A stretch of DNA of 64,000 nt, from assembly GCA_026122225.1 (NCBI GenBank), contig JANEZZ010000729.1:62001-126000 (forward strand), in the 5' to 3' direction. Source of the stretch: Heloderma charlesbogerti (lineage: Eukaryota > Chordata > Lepidosauria > Squamata > Helodermatidae). Both the position numbers and the translations under genes were made by a program. Positions 2,212-60,830 of the stretch are shown piece after piece; position 1 is the stretch's first letter, and the number at the start of each line of letters is the position of its first letter. The notes beneath the pieces were generated by a model, which was not told where the DNA came from, made no database searches, and worked only from the letters and a program-made list of their open reading frames with translations.

Positions 2212-2609
2212 CAGCCTTTTCCAACCTGGTGCACTCCAGATGTTTTGGACCCCAAGTCCTATCAGCTCGAGCCAGCATAGCCAATAATCAGGAATGCTGG
2301 GATTTGTACTTAGGGATGTTAGAGAATTCCTCCACAGATCCCAGGGAGGCTGAATTCCAGTGAATTCAGCCCCCCGGAATCCAGGGCGGAACAGAGGAAC
2401 CCGCCCCACCACCCTGCGAAAGCCCCGCGAAATGGAGCCTACCTGGCTGCGGCGGCAGCACTGCAGCAGTGGTGGTGGTGGTGGCTTCGGCGGTGGTGGT
2501 GGCAGTGACGGCAGCTCCAGCAGCAGCAGTGGCTCCAGCAGCTCCAGGGGCTTCCGGGCTGCAGCCGCGAATGCAGCCTCCACGCCAGCCACCATTTGTG
2601 TCCTTGGCA

Positions 2610-2985
2610 AGCCGTGATAGGCTACATAAGTATCACGTAGCCTATCACGGCTCAGTGCAAGGATGCAAATGGCATAGCTGCCGCCATTTGTGTCCATGTC
2701 TTTAGCTGTGATAGGCTACGTATATATTTACGTAGCCTATCACGGCAAAAGATGGGTGCAAACGGTGTAGCAGCTGCCATTTGCGCCCCTGACTTTTGCC
2801 ATGATGGGCTACGTAAATATATGCGTAGCCTATCACGGCAATAGGAAGGAACGCAAACGGCAGCTGCTACGCCATTTGTGCCCCTGCCTTTTGCTGTGAT
2901 AGGCTACGTAAATATATATGTAGGGAGGGACACATCAAAACATCCGTAATAGGCTACATATATATTTATGTAGCCTGTCATGGCT
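2610..2985. repeat. Array of alternating A/B hairpins, ~94-bp period
   Basis: Type A palindromes (GATAGGCTACGT...ACGTAGCCTATC) start near 2610, 2704, 2797, 2892 (broken) and 2944. Type B palindromes (GCAAATGGC/GCAAACGG ... GCCATTTG) lie between them at about 2661, 2754 and 2848. The A-to-A spacing is 93-95 bases, so the array reads as tandem repeats of one A+B unit. Confidence 0.85.
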
Positions 2986-2988
2986 ACA

Positions 2989-5900
2989 TGGAACGTATCA
3001 CAAGGCTATGGAACGTATCACAAGGCTATGGAACGTATCACAAGGCTAAAAGATATGACGCCGGAAGATGAGCCCCTCAGGTCGGAAGGTGTCCAATATG
3101 CTACTGGGGAAGAGCAGAGGGTATTTCCAAGTAGCGCCAGAAAGAGTGAAGCGGCTGGGCCAAACCCGAAAGGACACTCAGCTGTGGATGTGTCTGGCGG
3201 TGAAAAGAAAATCCGATGCTGTAAAGAACAATATTGTTTAGGAACCTGGAATGTCAGATCAATGAATCAAGGTAAGCTGGAGGTGGTCAAACATGAGATG
3301 GCAAGACTGAACATTGACATCTTGGGAATCAGCGAACTAAAATGGACAGGCATGGGCGAATTTAATTCAGGTGACCATCATATCTACTACTGTGGGCAAG
3401 AATCCCTTAGAAGAAATGGAGTAGCACTCATAGTCAACAAAAGGGTGGGAAAAACAGTACTGGGGTACAATCTTAAAAATGATAGAATGATCTCAGTACG
3501 AATCCAAGGCAAACCATTCAACATCACAGTAATTCAAGTCTATGCCCCAACCACTGAGGCCGAAGAAGCGGAGGTTGATCGGTTCTATGAAGACCTACAA
3601 CACCTTCTAGAACTAACACCAAAAAAAGATGTCCTCTTCATCATAGGGGATTGGAATGCTAAAGTAGGAAGTCAAGAAATCACCGGGATAACAGGCAGGC
3701 ATGGCCTTGGTGTACAAAATGAAGCAGGACAAAAGCTAATAGAGTTTTGCCAAGAGAACATGCTGATCATAGCAAACACTCTTTTCCAACAGCACAAGAG
3801 GCGACTCTACACATGGACGTCACCAGATGGTCAATATCGAAATCAGATTGATTATGTCCTTTGCAGCCAAAGATGGAGAAGCTCCATACAGTCAGTAAAA
3901 ACAAGACCTGGAGCTGACTGTGGCTCAGATCATGAGCTGCTTCTTGCAAAATTTCGGCTTAAATTGAAGAACGTAGGGAAAACCACTAAACTGTTCAGGT
4001 ATGACCTAAATCATATCCCTGATGAATATACAGTGGAGGTGAGGAATAGATTTCAGGGATTAGACCTGATAGACAGAGTGCCTGAGGAACTATGGATGGA
4101 GGTCCGTAACATTGTTCAGGAGGCAGCAACGAAATCCGTCCCAAAGAAAAAGAAATGTAAGAAAGCCAAGTGGCTGTCTGATGAGGCTTTACAAGTAGCT
4201 CACGAAAGAAGGGAAGCGAAAAGCAGGGGAGAAAGGGGAAGATATACCCAACTGAATGCAGAGTTCCAGAGAATAGCAAGGAGAGACAAGAAGGCCTTCT
4301 TAAATGAACAATGCAAAGAAATTGAGGAAAGCAACAGAATGGGAAAGACTAGAGATCTCTTCAAGAAAATTGGAGATCTCAGAGGAACGTTTTGTGCAAA
4401 GACGGGCATGATAAAGGACAAAGAAGGCAGGGACCTAACAGAAGCAGATGAGATTAAGAAGAGGTGGCAAGAATACACAGAAGAACTATACAGGAAAGAT
4501 CTGAATGTCCCTGATAGCCATGATAGTGCGGTCACTGAACTTGAGCCGGACATCCTCGAGAGTGAAGTCAAGTGGGCCTTAGGAAGCATTAGTAACAACA
4601 AAGCTAGCGGAGATGACAGTATTCCAGCCGAGCTATTTAAAATCCTAAAAGATGATGCTGTTAAAGTGCTGCATTCAATATGCCAACAAATCTGGAACAC
4701 TCAACAGTGGCCACAAGACTGGAAAAGGTCAGTTTACATTCCAATTCCAAAGAAGGGCAACGCCAAAGAGTGTTCAAACTACCGCACAATTGCACTCATT
4801 TCACATGCCAGCAAGGTGATGCTCAAAATCCTACAAGCTAGGCTTCAGCAGTATGCGAACCGAGAACTACCAGAAGTACAAGCTGGGTTTAGAAGAGGCA
4901 GAGGAACTAGAGATCAAATCGCCAACATTCGCTGCATCATGGAGAAAGCAAGAGAATTCCAGAAAAACGTCTATTTCTGCTTCATTGACTATGCTAAAGC
5001 CTTTGATTGTGTGGATCACAACAAACTGTGGCAAATTCTTAAAGTGATGGGAGTACCAGACCACCTTACCTGTCTCCTGAGAAACCTGTACGAGGGTCAA
5101 GAAGCAACAGTAAGAACCACACATGGAACAACTGATTGGTTCAAAATTGGGAAAGGAGTACGACAAGGCTGCATATTGTCACCCTGCTTATTTAACTTAT
5201 ATGCAGAGTACATCATGAGAAATGCCGGATTGGATGAATCAGAGGTCGGAATTAAGATTGCTGGGAGAATTATCAACAACCTCCGATATGCAGACGATAC
5301 CACCCTAATGGCAGAAAGCGAAGAGGATCTCAAGAGCCTCTTGTTGAGGGTGAAAGAGGAGAGTGCAAAAGCTGGTTTGAAACTCAACATTAAAAAAACG
5401 AAGATCATGTCATCTGGCCCTATCACTTCCTGGCATATAGAAGGGAAGAAATGGAAGCAGTGACAGATTTTACTTTCTTGGGCTCCAAGATCACCGCAGA
5501 CGGTGACTGTAGCCATGAAATTAAAAGACGCTTGCTCCTTGGGAGGAAAGCTATGGCCAACCTAGACAGCATAGTAAGAAGCAGAGACATCACCTTGCCG
5601 ACAAAGGTCCGTCTAATCAAAGCTATGGTTTTCCCAGTAGTAATGTATGGCTGTGAGAGCTGGACTATAAGGAAGGCTGAGCGCCAAAGAATTGATGCTT
5701 TCGAACTGTGGTGCTGGAGAAGACTCTTACGAGTCCCCTGGACTGCAAGGAGGTCCAATCAGTCCATCCTAAAGGAAATCAACCCTGACTGCTCATTGGA
5801 AGGACAGATAATGAAGCTGAAGCTCCAGTATTTTGGCCACCTAATGCGAAGAGAAAACTCCCTGGAAAAGACCCTGATGCTGGGAAAGACTGAAGGCAAA

Positions 5901-6069
5901 AGGAGAAGGGGACGGCAGAGGATGAGATGGCTAGATAGCATCACAGATGCAATGAATATGAACTTGAGCACGCTCCGGGAGAGAGCGCGGGACAGGAAGG
6001 CCTGGCGTGCTATGGTCCATGGGGTCACGAAGAGTCGGACACGACTGAACGACTGAACAACAACAACAA
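2989..6069 (+). mobile_element. Full-length BovB (RTE-clade) LINE, copy 1
   Basis: A nearly complete BovB of about 3.1 kb. The exact 11-bp duplication TCATGGCTACA flanks it at 2978-2988 and 6070-6080. The 5' end carries three copies of a 20-bp unit (GGAACGTATCACAAGGCTAT) at about 2990-3049. The 3' end has the conserved BovB terminus GTCGGACACGACTGAACGAC followed by a short ACA repeat instead of a long poly-A. It lies inside the hairpin-array element. Only one reading-frame break separates it from an intact ORF, so the insertion is probably young. Confidence 0.95.
3028..6056 (+). pseudogene. BovB endonuclease/reverse transcriptase ORF with one frameshift
   Basis: Encodes the LINE protein that nicks target DNA and primes reverse transcription of its own RNA. 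Database entries for such copies are often mislabelled craniofacial development protein 2-like. An open frame starts at ATG 2980, but that ATG lies in the duplicated target site; the first ATG inside the element in this frame is at 3028. Counting residues from 2980: the APE-type endonuclease starts near LGTWN (87-91), with GDWNAKVG at 223-230 and SDH at 316-318. The reverse transcriptase has FIDYAKAFD from 668, GVRQGCILSP and the catalytic YADD at 770-773. A G run at 5442-5445 has one base fewer than the copy at 44237, so the frame ends at 5463. The remaining ~200 residues, which include LWCWRRLLRVPWTARRSNQS, continue in another frame to 6056. Otherwise intact. Confidence 0.93.
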
Positions 6070-6353
6070 TCATGGCTACAGACATGGATGCAAATGGCGG
6101 CGGCTATGGCAGCTGCCATTTGCATCCCTGTGCAGCCCAGCGGCCGGATGTCCGGCTGCGGGCGGCCCTGGCCAGCAGCTCTGTGGAGTTGCCGCGGAGT
6201 GGAGCCAGCCAGGAAGGATTCCGGGGGGAGGGACAAAGTGCCTCCCCCCACCATGGATTGCCCAACGCGGAGCCTACCTGGAGAGTATGAAGAGTTTCAT
6301 ACATCCCTATTTGTGCTCAAAAATATCTGGAGGGCACCGGTTAGGGAAGCCTA

Positions 6354-12363: not shown

Positions 12364-13584
12364 GCTTTCACCCCTGGTAGCACCATTCATAATTGGAGGT
12401 CCTGCACCCACAGCCAGCTGCATTGCCTTTATTTTGGAAGGCAGGAAGGATACACTGGAATTCTGCCTCAAGTTCAAACAAGCCTCACACATAACTAGTC
12501 TAGGGATGGCCTTGACAGTGGTGGTGCTGGAGCAATACGGCACTTGGGGTATTTTTGAAAGAGTTTTTGTTGGCCTGAAGTTATTTCCTTTTCTCTTTTT
12601 CCTTTGCCCTTGAACTTCTTGGCCTCTTGCCTAAGGCAAGAGCCAATCTGCCAGCCAATCCATCTTCGAGCTATCCTGAATACTCTGGGGAAGGCCCACC
12701 TCGCATCCCTGGGCTGGCAGGGGACAATGCTAAGAGTGAGAGCCGTGGGGTGAGCCAGCCAGTCAATTGAGACTGCCTGCATACCGCTGCTGTGTGGAAA
12801 TGGGATGTCCTTAGGGAACCTTCCTGCAATTCAGAGGACATCACCCCCGGAAGTTGCTGGTAGAGAAACTGAGCTGCTTACATCATGCTGCTTATGATGG
12901 AGATGGGTGGGTGTTCCCAAAGGCCAGGCCAGCCAAGGCACTCCGCCCCAAAAACAGGAGAGACGGCTTTTGCACAGCATTGCCATATAGACAGGCAGAA
13001 AGACGATACCTAGGTCTGACACTCCATGACAAGAAGATCTCTTCCTTTTCTGAGCCAAGTGATGGGATGAAGGAATCTAGAAGAAGAACAGGGAAACTTT
13101 TGGGCAAGGCAAGGTTAAATTCAAAGCAAATACAGAATGCTCCAAGTTTCTTCCAGGCCAGCTGTCATATCCGAGCATTCAAATTCTCCTCTGCATGTGG
13201 TTTCAACCACCACCCGAAATTGGTAAGTGTGTATCCCGACTCTATGCCCCATACAAAACAAAACAAAACATAAAGCAAAACACCAGATTCTGTGTCAGTG
13301 TCAGTTAGGCCAATCTGTGCAAATGTATTTGTCCATTTCTCTGTAATATATTCCACTTCAGATCCAGATTTTCAAAGTATTAGGAAGTCTGTGGGACTGC
13401 CAAATGCACATCTGGAGAGTGATTCAGCAGTTGAACAGCTACTAGTTCCATGATGTAGTGCAACATCAGGCAAAATGTGTGCATGAGAGTTATTAAATGT
13501 TGATACATTCCTAAGTCTAGAAATTCCATGCAGGAGTGCACACATGAACAAGTCCCCCCTCCCAAAGCATAACAGTATCTGGGA
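12364..13584. other. No recognised feature
   Basis: Unique-looking sequence with an AAAAC microsatellite near 13253-13273. No clear exon or repeat. Confidence 0.4.
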
Positions 13585-14556
13585 TAGGGTTGGCGGAGAA
13601 TTTCTCCCCAAAACTTCGGGGGGCCGAGCACCAACGTGTTCAGCCCCCCGAAGAAGTTTCGGGGAGAAATTCTCCGCACCCCCCCTGCCCCCCGCGCCCC
13701 CCCCGGGACGGGACTTACCTTTCCCGAATGTCCCTCCCGGCGGCGGGTCCCGGCGGCGGTTCGGCGGGTCTTCGTCAGGGGCGGGGGCGGCAGCCGATCT
13801 TTCGACCGGCTGCCGCCGCCGCCATTCCAATAAAACTAAAAAAAAAACAACGCCCCTGTGATAGGCTACGTGACGATTAACGTAGCCTATCACGGCTAGA
13901 TCTGCAAAGTCAGCCGTGATAGGCTATGTAAATCGTCACGTAGCCTATCACGGGTGACTTAAAAAAAAAAAAAAAAGCGTGTACGGCTAATGGCGGCCCC
14001 CATAGGGAGCCGCCATTCACGTTCCTTATTTGGTCGCTGTAGTCTACATAAAGATTACGTAGACTACGGCGAAAATAAGGGCAACGCTATTTGCGTTGCC
14101 CTTATTTTCGCCGTAGTCTACGTAAAGATTTACATAGACTACAGCGACCAAATAAGGAACGCGAATGGCAGCTCCCTATGGGGGCCGCCATTTGCGTACG
14201 TGCTTTTTTTTTTCAAAGTCACCCGTGATAGGCTACGTGACGATTTACGTAGCCTATCACGGCTGACTTTGCAGATCTAGCCGTGATAGGCTACGTTAAT
14301 CGTCACGTAGCCTATCACGGGGGCGTTTTTCTTTTTTAAAAACTTTTTATTTCGCGGCCGGGCGAGGCGGGAAGCCTCCCCCCCGGCCTGAATTTCGGCC
14401 GGGTGAGGCAGGAAGCCTCCCCCCCGGCCTGAATTTCGGCCGGGCGAGGCGGGAAGCCTCCCCCCCCAGCCTGAACTTCGGGGGGAGAGCAGCGAAGCGC
14501 CTCCCCCCCACCGCAAAAAGCTGCGAGACCAGGTAAGTGGCTTTCGTGCACCCCTA
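13585..14556. mobile_element. Hairpin-array hAT-like element, copy 2
   Basis: 972 bases, starting TAGGGTTGGCGG and ending GTGCACCCCTA. The exact 8-bp duplication ATCTGGGA lies at 13577-13584 and 14557-14564. GC-rich subterminal blocks carry outward-facing AGGTAAGT at both ends (complement of 13713-13720; + strand 14531-14538). The core 13851-14324 is a multi-level palindrome. No transposase ORF, so it would depend on an enzyme supplied from elsewhere. Confidence 0.9.
13851..14324. repeat. 474-bp palindrome built of smaller palindromes
   Basis: The whole core is self-complementary around 14087-14088. Each half contains the same ordered set of smaller hairpins: A (13855-13895), A (13914-13953), B (13989-14017), C (14039-14067), then a central hairpin around GGGCAACGC/GCGTTGCCC, then C (14113-14142), B (14161-14196), A (14223-14262) and A (14281-14320). 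Type C (TAGTCTACGTAAA) looks like a diverged type A. Confidence 0.92.
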
Positions 14557-15440
14557 ATCTGGGATCTTGGGAACATCCAACAATTGAGAAAGCAACGAGC
14601 TGTAGATGTACACCCAGCCCGAAGCCACTTTGGATTCAGCCGGTGGGATTTTCTACAGAAATCTATTGCTAGGGTTGGATAAATGAACTGGCAACACAAC
14701 CGCTTTTGTTACACGGTTGAAGGGCATGGCTAATATTGGGGTGGGGTGGGGGTGACTTGCTCAGCTTGCAGCGCACTGCTAGGCTCTGCTCTATAAGCAA
14801 CACACAATAGAGTCAGGTACCTTCAAGAGGCTTCTTTATTGTATAATACATGAAAAAACACTGTGGAGCTGTGCGCCGTGTTTTCTCAGTTCCAAGGCCA
14901 ACACTAAGAGAAAGATGGGGAGAGGTTCCACTTGAGCCTCCTGCAAGAGCTAAAAACAGCAGGTTATCATTCCTCCCTCCCTCCCTCTCTCCCTCTCTCC
15001 CTCTCTCTCTCTCACTCACCCCCCCCATTCTAACCCTTAATAAATTGCACAGCTGCTACAGTCAATTTCATAGTCCCATCTGCATTTTCCTAAAATACCA
15101 ACAATGCTGGACTACGCTGCAGAATGTTCATACTCTACCCTACCCCCCCCCCCGCAGAATAAGAATAACAACACTGGGCTACTTTGCAGGTCTTGTGTAA
15201 CCCACACTCCCTCAGCCACAGCCCTGCCTCCTGCAATATGGGTATAACAATGATGAAGTTTATCTGCACACATTGTCAAGGTAATTTTTTAAATGTTTAT
15301 AAACGCTGAGAAAAATGTTAACAAGAACTGAGTTAGAAAGATCATGAACTCCTGTCTTTGCTGCTACCTTTTGTTTCTTGGGAGACACAGGACTGTGCAT
15401 CTTCCCTTGAGATTCTGGGACTGGCAGGGATTGTCCTTTC
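14557..15440. other. Mostly unassigned, with simple repeats
   Basis: Contains a (CCCT/CTCT)n tract near 14970-15018 and C runs near 15019 and 15144. A TAGGGCTGTGCA terminus at 15444 resembles the left end of the element at 31684, but no matching right end was found. Confidence 0.35.
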
Positions 15441-16500: not shown

Positions 16501-16910
16501 TAGGGATGTCAGAGAAATCTGCAATGGAACCAAATGAGTTTGGATTTTCAGGAATCCGTCCCCCGGATTCTGCAGTGGACTGGCTTTCCCCTGTTGGGTG
16601 GATTCTGTGGACTTGCACACCATTTTTCTAACTTTCTGGAATTTTGTGCAAATTTCATCATAGAAAAATATGCAAAACAACAACAACAACAACAACAACA
16701 GCAACAACAGCCCAAAATGCACATTTGCTCCCATAGGCTAAAGGGTGAAAATGCGCATTTGGGGGATTTATGCATTTTCACACATGCATTTGTGCAAATT
16801 CAGAAACAAAAAAAATGCAATTGTGTCAATGGGTGGATGATGGAACGAAAGGCACCTGACAGTCTGCTAAACACAGACTGAATAGATTTTACACAATTTG
16901 TACATTCTTA
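16501..16910. mobile_element. TAGGGATGT hAT-like element, family 2
   Basis: Starts TAGGGATGTCAGAGAAATC and ends TTGTACATTCTTA. The flanks CCTTCTCT (16493-16500) and GCGTCTCT (16911-16918) agree at 6 of 8 bases. The first ~28 bases resemble the ends of the hairpin-array family, but the inside differs (AATGCACATTTGCTCCCATA, GAAAATGCGCATTTGGGG). A (CAA)n tract sits at 16677-16703. Sister copies at 41324 and 63468. Confidence 0.75.
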
Positions 16911-24989: not shown

Positions 24990-25884
24990 TAGGGATGTAC
25001 GAAAGTCAATTGCCTTTAATGAAATTTGATTCGCGGTGGGGGGGAGGCGCTCTGTCCCTCCCCCTGAAATTCTGGCCGGGGGGTGAGGTGCTCCGTCCCT
25101 CCACCCCCGAATCCTGGCCGGCCAGGCCCGCAAATGGCGGCGGCCGTAGCCGCCGCCGTTTGCGTCCCTGCAGTCAGCCGTGATAGGCTACGTAAATGTT
25201 TATGTAGCCTATCACGGCTGAGTAAAAAAAACAACAACAAACTGCGCGTACGCAAATGGCGGTGCCCATGGGCGCCGCCATTTGCGTTCCTTATTTTGGC
25301 ATGTCTAGTCTACGTAAACATTTACGTAGACTACGGCGAAAATAAGGGGAACGCAAATAGCGTAGCATCTACGCTATTTGTGTTCCCCTTATTTTTGCCA
25401 TAGTCTACGTAAATGTTTATGTAGACTAGACGTGCCAAAATAAGGGATGCAAATGGCGGCGCCCATGGGCGCCGCCATTTGCGTACACGTGGGGTTTTTT
25501 TGTTTTTTTTACTCAGCCGTGATAGGCTACGTAAACATTTACGTAGCCTATCACAGTATTTTTTAAAAATCTAGCTGCGATAGGCTACGTAAATCTTTAC
25601 ATAGCCTATCACATTTTTTTTTTTACTGGAAATGGCGGCGGCGGCCGCTGGTCAGAAGACCGGCCACTGCCACCAAACCGCCGCAGAACTGCCGCCGAAC
25701 CGCCGCTGAACTGCCGCCGAACCGCCGCCGAACTGCCGCCGCCACTGCCACCTCCAGGAGGATTTGCCCAAGGTAAGTCCCGTCCCGGGGGGGTGGCAGA
25801 CCATTTTGCCACCAATTTCGGGGGGCCGAATGCGCTGGCATTCAGCCTCCCCGAGATTCATGGCAAAATTCTCTGACATCCCTA
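24990..25884. mobile_element. Hairpin-array hAT-like element, copy 3
   Basis: Starts TAGGGATGTACG, ends CTCTGACATCCCTA. ACTCATTT (24982-24989) and ACTCATTA (from 25884) flank it, 7 of 8 matching if the last A is counted as target. The core is palindromic about 25367 with B, A, B, C, centre, C, B, A, A hairpins. AGGTAAGT faces outward at 25771-25778. The right subterminal block (25625-25745) has CGCCGAACTGC-type tandem words. Confidence 0.87.
25177..25556. repeat. 380-bp palindrome built of smaller palindromes
   Basis: Symmetry axis near 25367. Hairpins at 25177-25218 (A), 25251-25287 (B), 25306-25333 (C), 25347-25388 (centre, GAACGCAAATAGCGTAG), 25400-25428 (C), 25449-25482 (B) and 25515-25556 (A). 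A further A lies outside at 25576-25613 and a B at 25130-25164. The order matches the element at 13585. Confidence 0.9.
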
Positions 25885-28224: not shown

Positions 28225-28400
28225 CAGTGGAGGCTAGTGGCTGCGATGTCTGTCAGTGGGGTGGTGAATCCACTCTGGGTTTCAGTCAGAACCAGTCAGT
28301 GATGCACCTTGGAGAGCTCCGTCAGAGTTCTGACTGGTTCTGACTGAAACCCAGAGTAGATACTCCACCCCATTGACATCAGAGCCACCAGCCTCCACTG
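28225..28400. mobile_element. CAGTGGAGGCT palindromic hAT-like MITE
   Basis: 176 bases, almost entirely one palindrome: CAGTGGAGGCTAGTGGCT ... AGCCACCAGCCTCCACTG, with GGGTTTCAGTCAGAACCAGT and its complement inside. The flanks GATTAGAT (28217-28224) and GATGAGAT (28401-28408) match at 7 of 8 bases. Second copy at 50284. Confidence 0.87.
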
Positions 28401-32441: not shown

Positions 32442-33402
32442 TAGGGATGTTAGAGAATTCTGCCACGGACTCCAATGAGGCTGGATTCTTAGAATCCGGC
32501 CCCTCGGAGCCAGTGGCAGAACGGACCACCCACCTCCGCCAACCCGCGAAGTTGCCCCAGAACGGATGCTACCTGCCACTGGCTGGGCCCGGTCCATCCA
32601 CTTCCATCCTGCGTGTCAGGGTGGACACTGAGCCCATAGAATCCCAGAGTAGTTCTGATTCGGAGGAAGAGCAGTCGCTCCTGGGAGAGGAGCGTGCCCC
32701 TTTTTCCCAGGGCCCGCAGCTGACAGAGATTCCTCCCACCAACATTCCTAGATTAGAAAGCAGTCCAGGGAGTGACCCAGCACAGATAGCAGACTGGGTG
32801 GATGCGCGGCGCAGACGCAGAGAGCGGCGCCAAATGGAGAGCGCGGCAAGGAGGCGTAGCGCCCGGTTGGCAGGCGCTCAAAGAACGGTTGCGCCCAGAG
32901 GATCCAAGGGAAAAGGGGAGGGATTCTCCCTAGTCCTTATATTCAGGGGTCTACCAGTAATTGCCTTTCAAACGGGGACCAACTGTTCAAACTTAGGGCA
33001 TAGGGATGCTGCTGCTCAGATCTAGTTGCTACCTGTAGAGTTGTTAAGTTGTAAAAGAAGAATAAAGCTTTGAAAAGAATCCCTTTGTCTGCGTCTGGAC
33101 TTGGCTACTGGATTAGACTGAGAGAGCCCTCCAAGGAGCCCTTGACACTGCGGAAGAAAATGGCGTCCAGCATAGCGGATGCCATTTACGTCCCTTTTCT
33201 TTGCTGTAATAGGCTATGTAAATATTTACGTAGCCTATCACGGCAAAGAGCAGGGACGCAAATGGTGTAGCGGAAGGCAGCTCTGTGGACTCACCGCAGA
33301 GTGGAGCCAGCCAGCGAGGATTCTGGGGGGGAGGGATGGATCACCTCCCCCGCCCTGCGGACCCCCCGCGGATTCCAAGTAAGTGGGTTTCATACATCCT
33401 TA
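32442..33402. mobile_element. Hairpin-array hAT-like element, copy 4, with solo LTR
   Basis: Starts TAGGGATGTTAGAGAATTC, ends GTTTCATACATCCTTA. The exact 8-bp duplication AATACAAT lies at 32434-32441 and 33403-33410. Without the LTR it is about 420 bases, with one B hairpin (33159-33189), one A hairpin (33201-33246) and half a B. CAAGTAAGTG faces outward near the right end. Confidence 0.92.
32614..33147 (+). mobile_element. Solo LTR of an endogenous retrotransposon
   Basis: 534 bases with TG...CA ends (TGTCAGGGTGG ... CCCTTGACA) and an exact 5-bp duplication CTGCG (32609-32613 and 33148-33152). An AATAAA polyadenylation signal lies near 33060. No internal gag/pol region is present, so this is the product of LTR-LTR recombination. 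5-bp duplications are usual for Ty3/Gypsy LTR elements and occur in some retroviral groups; the class cannot be fixed from the LTR alone. The + frame is open through about 33025 with an Arg-rich segment (DARRRRRERR) around 32800-32880; whether it was ever translated is unknown. Confidence 0.85.
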
Positions 33403-41250: not shown

Positions 41251-41434
41251 GAGTTCTCTCTACTTGCCAATGAAGGAAACCAGTTCCTGATGAAGAAAAC
41301 CTACTGTTTATTCTTGATGCAAGTAGGGATGTTGGAGAAATCTGCAATGGAACCTAATGAGTTTGGATTATTATGAATCCAGGCTGAGGATTCCACAGAG
41401 GACTGGCTTTTCCCATCAGGCAGGGTATTATTTT

Positions 41435-42315: not shown

Positions 42316-44851
42316 CATCACAGTAATTCAAGTCTATGCCCCAACCACTGAGGCCGAAGAAGCTGAGGTTGATCGGTTCTATGAAGACCTACAACACCTT
42401 CTAGAACTAACACCAAAAAAAGATGTCCTCTTCATCCTAGGGGATTGGAATGCTAAAGTAGGAAGTCAAGAAATCACCGGGATAACAGGCAGGCATGGCC
42501 TTGGTGTACAAAATGAAGCAGGACAAAAGCTAATAGAGTTTTGCCAAGAGAACATGCTGATCATAGCAAACACTCTTTTCCAACAGCACAAGAGGCGACT
42601 CTACACATGGACGTCACCAGATGGTCAATATCGAAATCAGATTGATTATGTCCTTTGCAGCCAAAGATGGAGAAGCTCCATACAGTCAGTAAAAACAAGA
42701 CCTGGAGCTGACTGTGGCTCAGATCATGAGCTGCTTCTTGCAAAATTTCGGCTTAAATTGAAGAATGTAGGGAAAACCACTAAACCGTTCAGGTATGACC
42801 TAAATCATATCCCTGATGAATATACAGTGGAGGTGAGGAATAGATTTCAGGGATTAGACCTGATAGACAGAGTGCCTGAGGAACTATGGACGGAGGTCCG
42901 TAACATTGTTCAGGAGGCAGCAACGAAATCCGTCCCAAAGAAAAAGAAATGTAAGAAAGCCAAGTGGCTGTCAGATGAGGCTTTACAAGTAGCTCACGAA
43001 AGAAGGGAAGCGAAAAGCAAGGGAGAAAGGGGAAGATATACCCAACTGAATGCAGAGTTCCAGAGAATAGCAAGGAGAGACAAGAAGGCCTTCTTAAATG
43101 AACAATGCAAAGAAATCGAGGAAAACAACAGAATGGGAAAGACTAGAGATCTCTTCAAGAAAATTGGAGATCTCAAGGGAACGTTTTGTGCAAAGACGGG
43201 CATGATAAAGGACAAAGAAGGCAGGGACCTAACAGAAGCAGATGAGATTAAGAAGAGGTGGCAAGAATACACAGAAGAACTATACAGGAAAGATCTGAAT
43301 GTCCCTGATAGCCATGATAGTGCGGTCACTGAACTTGAGCCGGACATCCTCGAGAGTGAAGTCAAGTGGGCCTTAGGAAGCATTAGTAACAACAAAGCTA
43401 GCGGAGATGACAGTATTCCAGCCGAGCTATTTAAAATCCTAGAAGATGATGCTGTTAAAGTGCTGCATTCAATATGCCAACAAATCTGGAACACTCAACA
43501 GTGGCCACAAGACTGGAAAAGGTCAGTTTACATTCCAATTCCAAAGAAGGGCAACGCCAAAGAGTGTTCAAACTACCGCACAATTGCGCTCATTTCACAT
43601 GCCAGCAAGGTGATGCTCAAAATCCTACAAGCTAGGCTTCAGCAGTATGCGAACCGAGAACTACCGGAAGTACAAGCTGGGTTTAGAAGAGGCAGAGGAA
43701 CTAGAGATCAAATCGCCAACATTCGCTGCATCATGGAGAAAGCAAGAGAATTCCAGAAAAACGTCTATTTCTGCTTCATTGACTACGCTAAAGCCTTTGA
43801 TTGTGTGGATCACAACAAACTGTGACAAATTCTTAAAGTGATGGGAGTACCAGACCACCTTACCTGTCTCCTGAGAAACCTGTACGAGGGTCAAGAAGCA
43901 ACAGTAAGAACCACACATGGAACAACTGAGTGGTTCAAAATTGGGAAAGGAGTACGACAAGGCTGCATATTGTCACCCTGCTTATTTAACTTCTATGCAG
44001 AGTACATCATGAGAAATGCCGGGTTGGATGAATCAGAGGTTGGAATTAAGATTGCCGGGAGAATTATCAACAACCTCCGATATGCAGACGATACCACCCT
44101 AATGGCAGAAAGCGAAGAGGATCTCAAGAGCCTCTTGTTGAGGGTGAAAGAGGAGAGTGCAAAAGCTGGTTTGAAACTCAACATTAAAAAAACTAAGATC
44201 ATGGCATCTGGCCCCATCACTTCCTGGCATATAGAAGGGGAAGAAATGGAAGCAGTGACAGATTTTACTTTCTTGGGCTCCAAGATCACCGCAGACGGTG
44301 ACTGTAGCCATGAAATTAAAAGACGCTTGCTCCTTGGGAGGAAAGCTATGGCCAACCTAGACAGCATAGTAAGAAGCAGAGACATCACCTTACCGACAAA
44401 GGTCCGTCTAATCAAAGCTATGGTTTTCCCAGTAGTAATGTATGGCTGTGAGAGCTGGACTATAAGGAAGGCTGAGCGCCGAAGAATTGATGCTTTCGAA
44501 CTGTGGTGCTGGAGAAGACTCTTACGAGTCCCCTGGACTGCAAGGAGGTCCAATCAGTCCATCCTAAAGGAAATCAACCCTGACTGCTCATTGGAAGGAC
44601 AGATAATGAAGCTGAAGCTCCAATATTTTGGCCACCTAATGCGAAGAGAAAACTCCCTGGAAAAGACCCTGATGCTGGGAAAGACTGAAGGCAAAAGGAG
44701 AAGGGGACGGCAGAGGATGAGATGGCTAGATAGCATCACGGATGCAATGAATATGAACTTGAGCATGCTCCGGGAGAGAACGCAGGACAGGAAGGCCTGG
44801 CGTGCTATGGTCCATGTGGTCACGAAGAGTCGGACACGACTGAACGACTGA
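42316..44851 (+). pseudogene. BovB endonuclease/RT ORF, one premature stop
   Basis: The frame runs from ITVIQVYAPT inside the endonuclease domain to the natural end of the protein at 44851, with a single in-frame TGA at 43823-43825 where copy 1 has TGG (Trp, after DHNKL). GDWNAKVG, SDHELL, FIDYAKAFD, GVRQGCILSP and YADD are all kept. It has the longer G run at 44237-44240, so the C-terminal segment stays in frame, unlike in copies 1 and 2. The N-terminal ~190 residues are missing through 5' truncation. Confidence 0.93.
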
Positions 44852-44861
44852 ACAACAACAA
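42316..44861 (+). mobile_element. 5'-truncated BovB LINE, copy 3
   Basis: About 2.5 kb, ending with the BovB terminus and ACAACAACAA. TTCCCTAG at 42308-42315 and 44865-44872 is the target duplication (10 of 11 if extended leftward). Very similar to copy 1. Confidence 0.94.
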
Positions 44862-45272: not shown

Positions 45273-45731
45273 TAGGGGTGTATGGAACATACTCACCAGT
45301 CAGCTGGGAGAGTCCACGGGGTGTGTGTGAGGCAATCTGTCCCTCCCCCCGGAATCCTTGCCGGCCAGCTCTGCTCTGCGGTGAGTCCGTGGAGCCGCTG
45401 GCCAGGGCCGCCTGCAGCCAGACTTCCATCCACTGCCGGGCTGTGGCCGCAAATGGCGTCCAGCGTAGCGGACACCATTTGCGTCCCTGCTCTTTGCCGT
45501 GATAGGCTACGTAAATATTTACGTAGCCAATCACGGCCAAAGGGACGCCAGCAGCGGATGGCTGTGGAACGAAGACGACGACCCAGACCAGCTGCCACCA
45601 GGTAGGGTCCATCCCGGGGAGATTTCGGGTGGCGGCGGGGGGGTAGTCCGTTCTGCCACGGACTCCAGGGTGCCGGATTCTAAAGAATCCGGCCTCCTTG
45701 GAGTCTGTGGCGGATTTCTCCGCCATCCCTA
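45273..45731. mobile_element. Hairpin-array hAT-like element, copy 5 (shortest intact)
   Basis: 459 bases, TAGGGGTGTATGG ... TCTCCGCCATCCCTA. The exact 8-bp duplication TTTTATTT lies at 45265-45272 and 45732-45739. It contains one B hairpin (45451-45483) and one A hairpin (45494-45542), then half a B. The complement of 45291-45297 is GGTGAGT and 45601-45607 begins GGTAGGG, both facing outward. A minimal, uninterrupted member of the family. Confidence 0.93.
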
Positions 45732-46735: not shown

Positions 46736-46795
46736 ACCTTGTGTATAAGGGTGAGGAAGAAGATGGAACAGAGAAGAACTTCAATATTTCTGACA

Positions 46796-47285
46796 GGATG
46801 GATGTGGGGAGGGGGGCACAGCTCCTCACAGGATGGATGTGGGGAGGGGGGCACAGTTCCTCACAGGATGGATGTGGGGAGGGGGGCACAGCTCCTCACA
46901 GGATGGATGTGAGGAGGGGGGCACAGCTCCTCACAGGATGGATGTGGGGAGGGGGGCACAGCTCCTCACAGGATGGATGTGGGGAGGGGGGCACAGCTCC
47001 TCACAGGATGGATATGGGGAGGGGGGCACAGCTCCTCACAGGATGGATGTGGGGAGGGGGGCACAGTTCCTCACAGGATGGATGTGGGGAGGGGGGCACA
47101 GCTCCTCACAGGATGGATGTGGGGAGGGGGGCACAGCTCCTCACAGAATGGATGTGGGGAGGGGGGCACAGTTCCTCACAGGATGGATGTGGGGAGGGAG
47201 GCACAGCTCCTCACAGGACGGATGTGGGGAGGGGGGCACAGCTCCTCACAGGACGGATGTGGGGAGGGGGGCACAGTTCCTCACA
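46796..47285 (+). repeat. 35-bp minisatellite, 14 units
   Basis: The unit begins GGATGGATGTGGGGAGGGG and ends CAGCTCCTCACA. 490 bases are exactly 14 units with few substitutions (C/T in AGCTCC/AGTTCC; GAT/GAC). Since 35 is not a multiple of 3 and the unit lacks stops, all three + frames stay open, giving repetitive Gly/His/Ser-rich frames of 130-217 codons that should not be annotated as genes. Confidence 0.97.
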
Positions 47286-47880
47286 GTTTTTCCAGTATCC
47301 AACATGGAGTAAGATGTCAATTCCTGGAATTGTTTTCTGCACAATGTTGTAAGCCGGGAAACCTTGAAAAATGTTGATGAAAGGTTAGGATACTGGTACA
47401 CCCAGTAAATTATTGAAATTCAGCATCACCTTGGCTGGTAAAAGGAGCTCGTGTCTTATTGCCATTTCAAAATCTTCCCAAGAAAATGAGAAATTAAAAT
47501 GCCATGATAAATTCTATTTACCTCTTGCCTGCACAGTAAGGTGGTGGAGGCATCTCCAGATGAAGACCTGGGACAGTCCAAAACAAGAACAACCCTTGGA
47601 GCTTTAATGCTTCCATGTCCACCTGTTGCGTGTGGCCGCTACTGGATGCACCTCTAAGGTGCAGCTCCCACACCTCACTTCTCCTGCTTCTGCTATTGGC
47701 CAGAGCACACAACCGCAGGCCTTGGAGGGGATGCAGATGCACCCTCTCAGAAGCGCTTTGATCCCCCAGATCTTAATACGAACTCACCTGCCCTTTCAGA
47801 CTTGTAAATAAAAATAGATGCAAAGTGGGAGGGGTGGGGACTCTATGCACCAAATACTGCCCCCCCTGCCGAAGTCACCC
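47286..47880. other. No recognised feature
   Basis: No repeat or exon identified. Confidence 0.3.
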
Positions 47881-50283: not shown

Positions 50284-50496
50284 CAGAGGTGCCTGGTGGC
50301 TCCAATATTGATGGGGCAGCGAATCCTCTCTGGGTTTCAGTCAGAACCAGTGAGAACTCTAAAGGAGCTTCCAAGGTGCTGAATCCACTTGGGGGATAGG
50401 GGTCAGCTCTTGGATAGCTCCTTTAGAATTCTGGCTGGTTCCGACTGAAACCCAGAGTGGATTCACCGTCCTACTGAAATAGGAGCCACCAACCTG
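50284..50496. mobile_element. CAGTGGAGGCT palindromic hAT-like MITE, copy 2
   Basis: Contains GGGTTTCAGTCAGAACCAGT and GACTGAAACCCAGAGTGG as at 28225. The flanks TCCCAAGC (50276-50283) and TCCCAAAG (50497-50504) agree at 6 of 8 bases. Right terminus shortened. Confidence 0.75.
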
Positions 50497-59589: not shown

Positions 59590-60830
59590 AAATAAGGGGG
59601 GAAAAGAAGGATTTGACACTTCTGTTTCAAATATATATGTTAAATAAGCAGTCCATATATCTAAATAAGCATCCATATGAGATTGGTGGCTATAGGAGAT
59701 ACGTTAAAATGTAGTGAGAGCAGTAAGATGTTCAGTCCACTAAATGATAGGTGGTGGGTGTTTATCCTTATAAGCTTCAAGTATATGTCTCTTTGGGTAG
59801 AATCCAACTGAAGTCCTCCTTAGAGTAGACCCATTGAAATGAATGGGACATACGTTAATCATGGCTGACCTAAGTCCATTCATTTCAGTGGGTCTACTCT
59901 AAGGAGGACTGAAGTCGAATTCTACCCTTTGCTACTGCAAGGACTCTCACTTTTGCTGTCAGTCTGTTAATTCCCACACCACAGTGACGTAGTTTAAAAA
60001 CACATCCACTATTATCACAGATTTTTCAAGAATGGCGTTTATACGAGCAATGACTTCCAAGAAGAAGCCGCTACAGGACACAACCACATCATATGCCTCA
60101 ATGAAGCATTGGTCGTCATTACATCTGGCAGAGCCAGCTGCTTCTCTACAAGCCCCTGTGGTGCCCAATATATGTGAAACATCCATTTTTGTTGAAACAG
60201 CTTCAATTTTAAATCTGCAGAAATAGTACATATGGAAGCTAGGGCAACTTCCCATTGATCAGACTGTATAGGGCTCCTTATTCGATTCCTCGCTGACATC
60301 TATTCCGTTCCAAAAGGCTTTTATAAGCAGCTATTGTAGGCTTAGCTTTCTGGAAAGAACCAATTAATTCATCCAACAGTGTAGGAAGTGCAGAAGCTGA
60401 TGGCCCATAAATAGGCTCCAGCAAATGCTGTCACTGAATATACTGCCAGCTCGCACTAGACGGTAAATTCTATCCAATCCATAATACTGAAAATGGTAAA
60501 AACTCAGCATCCAATCCTATTAAGTGATCTAAAGTATAAATTCCACTATCAGCCCAGTTCCTCCACATAAAAGGCCGTCTATTTTCAAGACTGAATTCTC
60601 CCATAAAGTTAATTTAGCATGGGAATATGGATCAAAGTACAGCTGACAAGACATTGCTTGCCAAGTCTCTCCCGCCGCTAAAATTATTAGCGCAGCCATT
60701 CCTTTCTTTTTAAAATACCTAGATCCTAGCGCTATCCGGTCAGAGAGAGATGCCAAATAAGTTGACTCCAAAACAACCCATGGAAGAGTATTAAAAGAAA
60801 AATTTGTTTTCCAGTCATTGGTAGGAGTTA
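59590..60830 (-). mobile_element. L1 LINE ORF2 fragment
   Basis: The complement of 59959-60255 and 60529-60834 is open and has the feel of L1 ORF2 C-terminal sequence (RCNDDQCFIEAYDVVVSC, FLEVIARINAILEK; LPWVVLESTYLASL). Frame breaks are frequent. A palindromic repeat at 59797-59932 interrupts it. L1 assignment is by resemblance. Confidence 0.6.
59797..59932. mobile_element. Palindromic MITE-like repeat
   Basis: Two ~52-bp arms, GGGTAGAATCCAACTGAAGT... and ...GACTGAAGTCGAATTCTACCC, including CCTCCTTAGAGTAGACCCAT and its near-exact complement, around a short loop. Confidence 0.85.

Follow-up and report, generated by a model that had tools for sequence, protein, structure and literature searches.

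The element E1 in the 64-kb window (the whole stretch of DNA analyzed here) is, as judged from its sequence and genomic copies, a nonautonomous, MITE-like hAT transposon without a recognizable protein, whose interior contains a large palindrome made of smaller palindromic hairpins. The reading that we favor, to which we assign a probability of roughly two in three, is that this palindrome was changed in source elements by fold-back copying of one arm onto the other and that the products were then amplified by transposition.

Termini and classification of E1

The only two exact occurrences of ATCTGGGA in the 64 kb adjoin E1, one on each side, and the reverse complement of this 8-mer is absent from the window; an earlier reading made from the letters alone (hereafter the sequence-only reading) had already described these exact 8-bp duplications. 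E1 and four related window elements, E2–E5, all start with TAGGG and finish with CCCTA or CCTTA, and short terminal inverted repeats of the TAGGG type are typical of hAT transposons. The earlier designation as hAT-like was supported by these ends, by the duplications, which are exact in 32 of the 39 other genomic copies scored (four have one mismatch and three are worse), and by a hAT transposase family in the same genome, the two termini of which, read at different loci, are similar.

MITEs lack coding capacity and occur in many copies. Correspondingly, none of the four open frames over E1 gave a Pfam match, and the spacer of the E1 type has 46,825 exact sites genome-wide (control, 0). E1 resembles hAT MITEs in its 8-bp duplications, short TAGGG-type ends, lack of a recognizable protein, many copies, and same-genome hAT transposase but differs from them in that palindromic modules, arrayed into a palindrome of about 500 bp, take up much of its interior. 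Whereas Foldback elements have long terminal inverted repeats, the long inverted repeat of E1 is internal.

Table 1. Features of E1 and its relatives, in window coordinates
Feature	Position	Strand	Remarks
E1, nonautonomous hAT element, order AACB-centre-BCAA	13585..14556	+	972 bp; from sequence and genomic copies
Target-site duplication of E1, ATCTGGGA, left and right	13577..13584 and 14557..14564	.	exact
5' subterminal hairpin of E1, separate from core	13593..13677	+	pairing kept via paired changes in related elements
G+C-rich hairpin in E1	13780..13823	+	20-nt arms, 90% complementary
Large palindrome (core) of E1	13839..14337	.	91% over 505 columns vs own reverse complement
Hairpin A1	13858..13893	.	
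Hairpin A2	13916..13951	.	loop inverted relative to A1
Hairpin C1 (GGCGGC)	13989..14017	.	
Hairpin B1 (TAGTCTA)	14040..14066	.	
Central hairpin	14055..14125	.	33-nt, 100% complementary arms around 5-nt loop; shares sequence with inner arms of B1 and B2
Hairpin B2	14114..14141	.	
Hairpin C2	14161..14195	.	
Hairpin A3	14225..14260	.	
Hairpin A4	14283..14318	.	
Outer right arm of E1, inverted copy of left arm (donor about 13824–13908)	14268..14352	.	family consensus; approximate boundaries, mapped to window
Three 41-bp tandem units in E1	14355..14477	+	
E2, order AACB-(C-like centre)-BCAC	24990..25884	-	flanking duplication fits only with a one-base shift
E3, order ACACACAC by scan, split by LINE	2311..6309	+	duplication TTTGTACT/TTTGTGCT, one mismatch
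E4, hairpins C, A, and partial second C; holds unrelated stretch	32442..33402	+	exact duplication AATACAAT
E5, order AC	45273..45731	-	exact duplication AAATAAAA

A palindrome of palindromes and its folding

When aligned with its own reverse complement, the segment 13851–14324 gave 438 identities, 29 mismatches, and 14 gaps, in agreement with the near-perfect 474-bp palindrome placed there by the sequence-only reading; the best extent is that given in Table 1. The two-level order that it had proposed, with four hairpins of alternating types in each half mirrored around a central one, was also found, the nine hairpins reading A A C B centre B C A A. Here, C denotes the GGCGGC hairpin and B the TAGTCTA hairpin, which had been named B and C, respectively, in that reading. 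A1 and A2 also constitute an inverted pair, with 43-nt arms that are 93% complementary. Folding prediction, suggested there as a check, placed E1 far beyond shuffled sequences: z was -42 for the core folded as DNA, with none of 100 dinucleotide shuffles as good, and -39 for the whole element folded as RNA, with none of 20 shuffles as good.

The palindromic words recur in other orders

The palindromic words of E1 recur in E2–E5, and the two-level order, previously considered unusual, is present in E1 but not a one-off, the same words standing in other orders elsewhere. A hairpin scan gave AACBBCAA for the E1 type, AACBBCAC for E2 and for two stretches of locus L066 (L066a and L066b), and the orders listed in Table 1 for E3 and E5; E4 read CA plus a partial C, and further loci read CAACAC (L051), ACCAC (L057), ACBBC (L056), and AAC (L060). 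Because the scan works with mismatch limits and misses decayed hairpins, several E1-type copies show a C missing. The consensus of 13 A hairpins from E1–E5 is a perfect 44-bp palindrome, and the stems of A and B differ by a paired change (TAGGCTA/TAGCCTA vs TAGTCTA/TAGACTA). On these sequence comparisons, E1 belongs to a large set of nonautonomous hAT elements that carry three palindromic words in varying orders. A related 5' end is also present at 16501, 41324, and 63467 (the last with several differences), with none of the A, B, and C words in the vicinity.

A search of the 2.30-Gb genome with E1 yielded 7467 first-look candidates, the best 40 of which (E1 included) were scored. All 40 matched E1 over nearly its full length, the 39 others at 89–94%; these begin with TAGGG in 36 cases and end with CTA in 38, and diverge from their own consensus by 2.5–6.6%, a value biased low, with divergent forms under-sampled, because the copies are the best-scoring of 7467. 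Two of them, L023 and L024, have one common duplication and probably represent a segmental copy; L024, repeating L023, was left out of the consensus and the mirror test. With dozens of separate copies bearing their own duplications, an assembly artifact was rejected as the source of the palindrome.

The exact A hairpin (12-base arms) has 154,696 genome sites (control, 0), or about one per 15 kb, equivalent to 4.3 per 64 kb compared with 5 in the window, and the exact B hairpin (10-base arms) has 59,915 (control, 7). As an E1-type element built as E1 has at most two spacers, the spacer count would correspond to at least about 23,000 such elements if they carry two each as in E1. A viral or prokaryotic source was rejected, as the exact A pattern had no match in the viral or prokaryotic contigs searched.

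A hAT transposase family with similar ends

A genome search for the hAT dimerization domain (PF05699) gave 871 first-look candidates. All 150 loci that were scored passed the cut-off, eight of them lying in open frames of 879 codons, counted from stop to stop rather than from a start codon. The 879-codon frame of L069 combines PF05699 (E 1.3e-16) with a BED finger, and its matches among solved structures were Hermes transposase entries only, the best covering residues 770–835. Open frames of about 870–908 codons are present at many PF05699 loci, several of which have identical scores, and the hAT family of this genome may therefore be recent or still active.

Upstream of the transposase in L070, the 5' end starts TAGGGATGTCAGAGAA, which agrees with E2 at 16 of 16 positions and with E1 at 13 of 16. 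At the 3' end, the sequence of L057 departs from that of the family and runs to TTCATACATCCCTA, which agrees with E3 at 14 of 14 positions and with E1 at 11 of 14. These two ends come from different loci, and none of the loci read showed both ends together with a duplication. From this terminal similarity, we infer that the hAT transposase of the same genome moves E1 by recognizing similar ends. The stretch of transposase element read contained no A or B word (up to one mismatch). TACATCCCTA, located about 330 bp past the transposase domain, was rejected as the element end, since 19 of 20 loci, all but L057, remain alike downstream of it. This internal TACATCCCTA, which is identical to the terminal motif, lies at about 2063–2083 (gene orientation) in L048–L067 and is changed in L066 and L067.

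The right arm of E1 repeats its left arm in inverted orientation

In E2, L066a, L066b, E3, E5, L051, and L057, the right arm reads A then C; E4 shows this junction too, but its C is truncated. Among these nine elements, E1 alone has a right arm consisting of the spacer, a second A, and the A-rich tract, inverted from its own left arm. In addition, the left spacer of E1 contains GTCAGCC, which is of the right-arm type in the relatives. The A–C state was taken as the older one because it is common to the eight relatives; as an exact 21-mer, it has 10,395 genome sites (control, 0), a count covering a single spelling that contains mutable CG sites. Given its differing right-arm state and the GTCAGCC in its left spacer, E1 appears to be an extended form, derived from a shorter palindrome by copying of the left arm onto the right.

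We then compared the arms at marker sites, scoring agreement by element versus agreement by side. The ratios were 15:1 for E1/E2, 15:1 for E1/L066a, 11:0 for E1/L066b, 15:2 for E2/L066a, and 13:1 for E2/L066b, with 0, 1, 1, 3, and 0 sites of a third kind in these five between-subfamily comparisons, and the window copies alone gave 16:2. Thus, in all five comparisons, the arms of one element group together rather than with the same arm of other elements. Within one subfamily (L066a/L066b), the ratio was 1:5 with two third-kind sites. In an arm tree, the E1 arms formed a clade (0.99), as did the E2 arms (0.98), but the L066 arms did not. The E1 consensus had an arm-to-arm identity of 0.96, compared with 0.91 for E2 and 0.87 and 0.88 for L066; between subfamilies the range was 0.80–0.87, the top of which the L066 values barely exceed. 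These weaker L066 arms count against the copying reading, as do the facts that E2 and L066 are represented by single copies and that the growth event dissected is a single one. Nor did the symmetry of the outer arm of E1 measurably exceed that of the inner one (asymmetric pairs, 2/84 vs 6/170).

Ongoing correction between the arms of settled copies was rejected, as 30 mirrored complementary changes were observed against 24.9 expected from column frequencies. This result suggests that the change is tied to the source elements or to transposition.

On contig C1, 64 of the 93 listed sites of the E1-type spacer stand in +/- pairs within 600 bp; other neighboring sites include three on the same strand and none in the -/+ arrangement. 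Of the 32 pairs, 18 are 362–376 bp apart, six are 288–296 bp apart, and eight have other distances. In L071 and L074, both from the 288–296-bp group, a single central B replaces B-centre-B, and the elements are still 91–92% palindromes. L072 and L073, from sites spaced at other distances, are lopsided, at 69% and 80%, indicating that not every deletion keeps the symmetry. The centers differ among E1, E2, L066a, and L066b. A proposal that the E1 center is the E2 center shortened by 20 bp was withdrawn, as the centers of L066a and L066b are also shorter. In L066 (2415–3252; AACBBCAC), the short center is the reverse complement of that of E1, as if the arms had been exchanged and the center flipped. 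For E1 itself, center flips as a sign of arm exchange were rejected, since all 40 E1 copies share one center orientation.

Proposed fold-back copying in source elements

The arm comparisons would be most readily explained by copying in source elements through fold-back priming, which we infer to be the most likely route. A break in a source element, for instance after excision, would leave a 3' end in the right arm; this end would fold back, pair with the left arm, copy outward, and be rejoined. Since the words are self-palindromic and alternate, inverted copies and symmetric hairpin-to-hairpin deletions would yield another palindrome, so that the palindrome-of-palindromes order could arise without design. 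Each successful source element would subsequently be multiplied by transposition. Fold-back priming in a hAT source would explain the inverted copy of the left arm, the mirrored A-rich tract, and the change confined to sources. PMC7999016 describes such priming, in which a resected 3' end lying close to an inverted repeat folds back to start synthesis, as a route to palindromic rearrangement.

A broader proposal, which we advance tentatively and with clearly less than even confidence, is that nested palindromes are self-perpetuating and that source elements evolve by rewriting an alphabet of A, B, and C hairpins, not only base by base. Every module is its own reverse complement, and fold-back copying, center deletion, and arm exchange would therefore all tend to return a palindrome. 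If this is true, one structural alphabet has spread through a 2.3-Gb genome to more than 150,000 sites.

Selection on a folded shape and other explanations

The chief alternative for the copying step is exchange between separate copies, and for persistence it is selection on the folded form. According to the selection explanation, which we consider unlikely, a hairpin RNA or cruciform DNA serves the element (in end pairing, silencing resistance, or small RNAs), and both the paired changes and the similarity of the arms reflect selection on structure among source elements. The extreme folding energies of E1 would fit this explanation, as would the A arms, which are nearly unchanged across the 13 copies from E1–E5 while the loop and flanks vary. 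An Rfam search at E up to 0.1 over E1 also gave 29 matches, the best (2.3e-9) to a microRNA family. However, all 29 are below the gathering score, at which the window has no match, and E1 was accordingly rejected as a known RNA; in our judgment, these are matches to long hairpins in general. Moreover, selection on hairpins alone does not predict the joint inverted copy of an A-rich tract, an asymmetric spacer, and a hairpin.

Further evidence in favor of shape selection comes from paired changes in the 5' subterminal hairpin, which we compared among E1–E5 and three relatives without core words (eight sequences). In this set, 89% of cells were paired compared with 77.5% in shuffles, and 15 of 25 pairs had changed on both sides compared with 8.3 ± 1.8, a level reached by one of 500 shuffles, where the scored structure was derived from the same alignment, which favors the structure. 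Sliding the partner strand abolished the paired-change signal. The number of further pair types was not raised (27 vs 25.4; 154 of 500 shuffles), and two of the eight single sequences folded only weakly better than shuffles (z -1.8 and -2.2). Either selection on shape or copying between arms could have produced these paired changes. Paired changes in such hairpins can thus stem from arm-to-arm copying and need not mean a functional RNA.

Recombination between separate copies, by inverted gene conversion or template switching, might also have made the arms alike, and we regard it as improbable as the main cause. Inverted exchange between two copies would leave a sequence identical to that left by fold-back copying, and opportunities would be ample given the density of exact A sites and the nesting of elements: five of the 39 E1 copies are inserted inside family relatives (L009, L030, L036, L037, and L043), in an A hairpin in L009 and a C hairpin in L030, from which we claim no preference of the element for its own hairpins as targets. 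Frequent exchange of this kind should, on the other hand, blur the subfamilies, which the marker sites separate. Finally, a plain tandem array of self-palindromic units formed without inverted copying, as suggested by the near self-complementarity of A, B, and C and by the ACAC arrays of E3 (period, about 94 bp), may be the origin of E3-type arrays but is very improbable for E1, where it is contradicted by the mirrored, asymmetric spacer seen in the +/- pairs on C1.

Relation to known systems

Long palindromes should be unstable, and the origin and persistence of palindromic transposons are, to our knowledge, poorly documented. This genome holds thousands of copies in shorter, extended, and center-collapsed states together with long open transposase frames; with several structural states in one genome, the growth and decay of the palindrome could be ordered in time. 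An internal inverted repeat is also present in the fish hAT elements Tol2/Angel, but there it is one inverted repeat rather than an array of alternating words.

Palindromic MITE-like repeats are known, six palindromic clusters in Anopheles being described in PMC3212995. Like the E1 family, the foldback-like Galileo element of Drosophila (P superfamily) has modular inverted repeats of changing length, and its structural variants are ascribed in PMC4168063 to abortion, slippage, template switching, and exchange. Galileo has terminal inverted repeats and a P-type transposase, whereas E1 has an internal long repeat, belongs to the hAT type, and is built of units that are themselves palindromes. 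Regularly ordered arrays of short palindromes also characterize the bacterial REP/BIME sequences (PMC2817692), to which we claim no sequence or evolutionary link.

The sequence-only reading knew of no described family with this organization. This holds among the literature matches listed, which include neither E1 nor a hAT palindrome of alternating palindromic modules, and the A word was not found in the full text of the literature searched; it does not hold for the kind of element, as nonautonomous hAT transposons are already known. What appears new among those matches is the architecture and its visible growth, although a repeat-library entry may exist.

Other repeats in the window

Two LINE copies (3522–6066 and 42316–44861) are 98.7% identical and encode reverse transcriptase and endonuclease domains, pointing to recent LINE activity. 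The first lies inside E3, where inspection shows TCATGGCTACA at either end of it, and the second lies inside the relative at 41324. We take these copies to be BovB, a label that, like CR1, is our assumption, as the domains seen were reverse transcriptase and endonuclease only. The palindromic repeats at 28225–28400 and 50294–50491 are related to each other and lack A, B, and C words, and a short palindrome at 59795–59927 is 84% identical to its own reverse complement. A minisatellite at 46787–47286 has units of about 70 bp that are about 95% alike.
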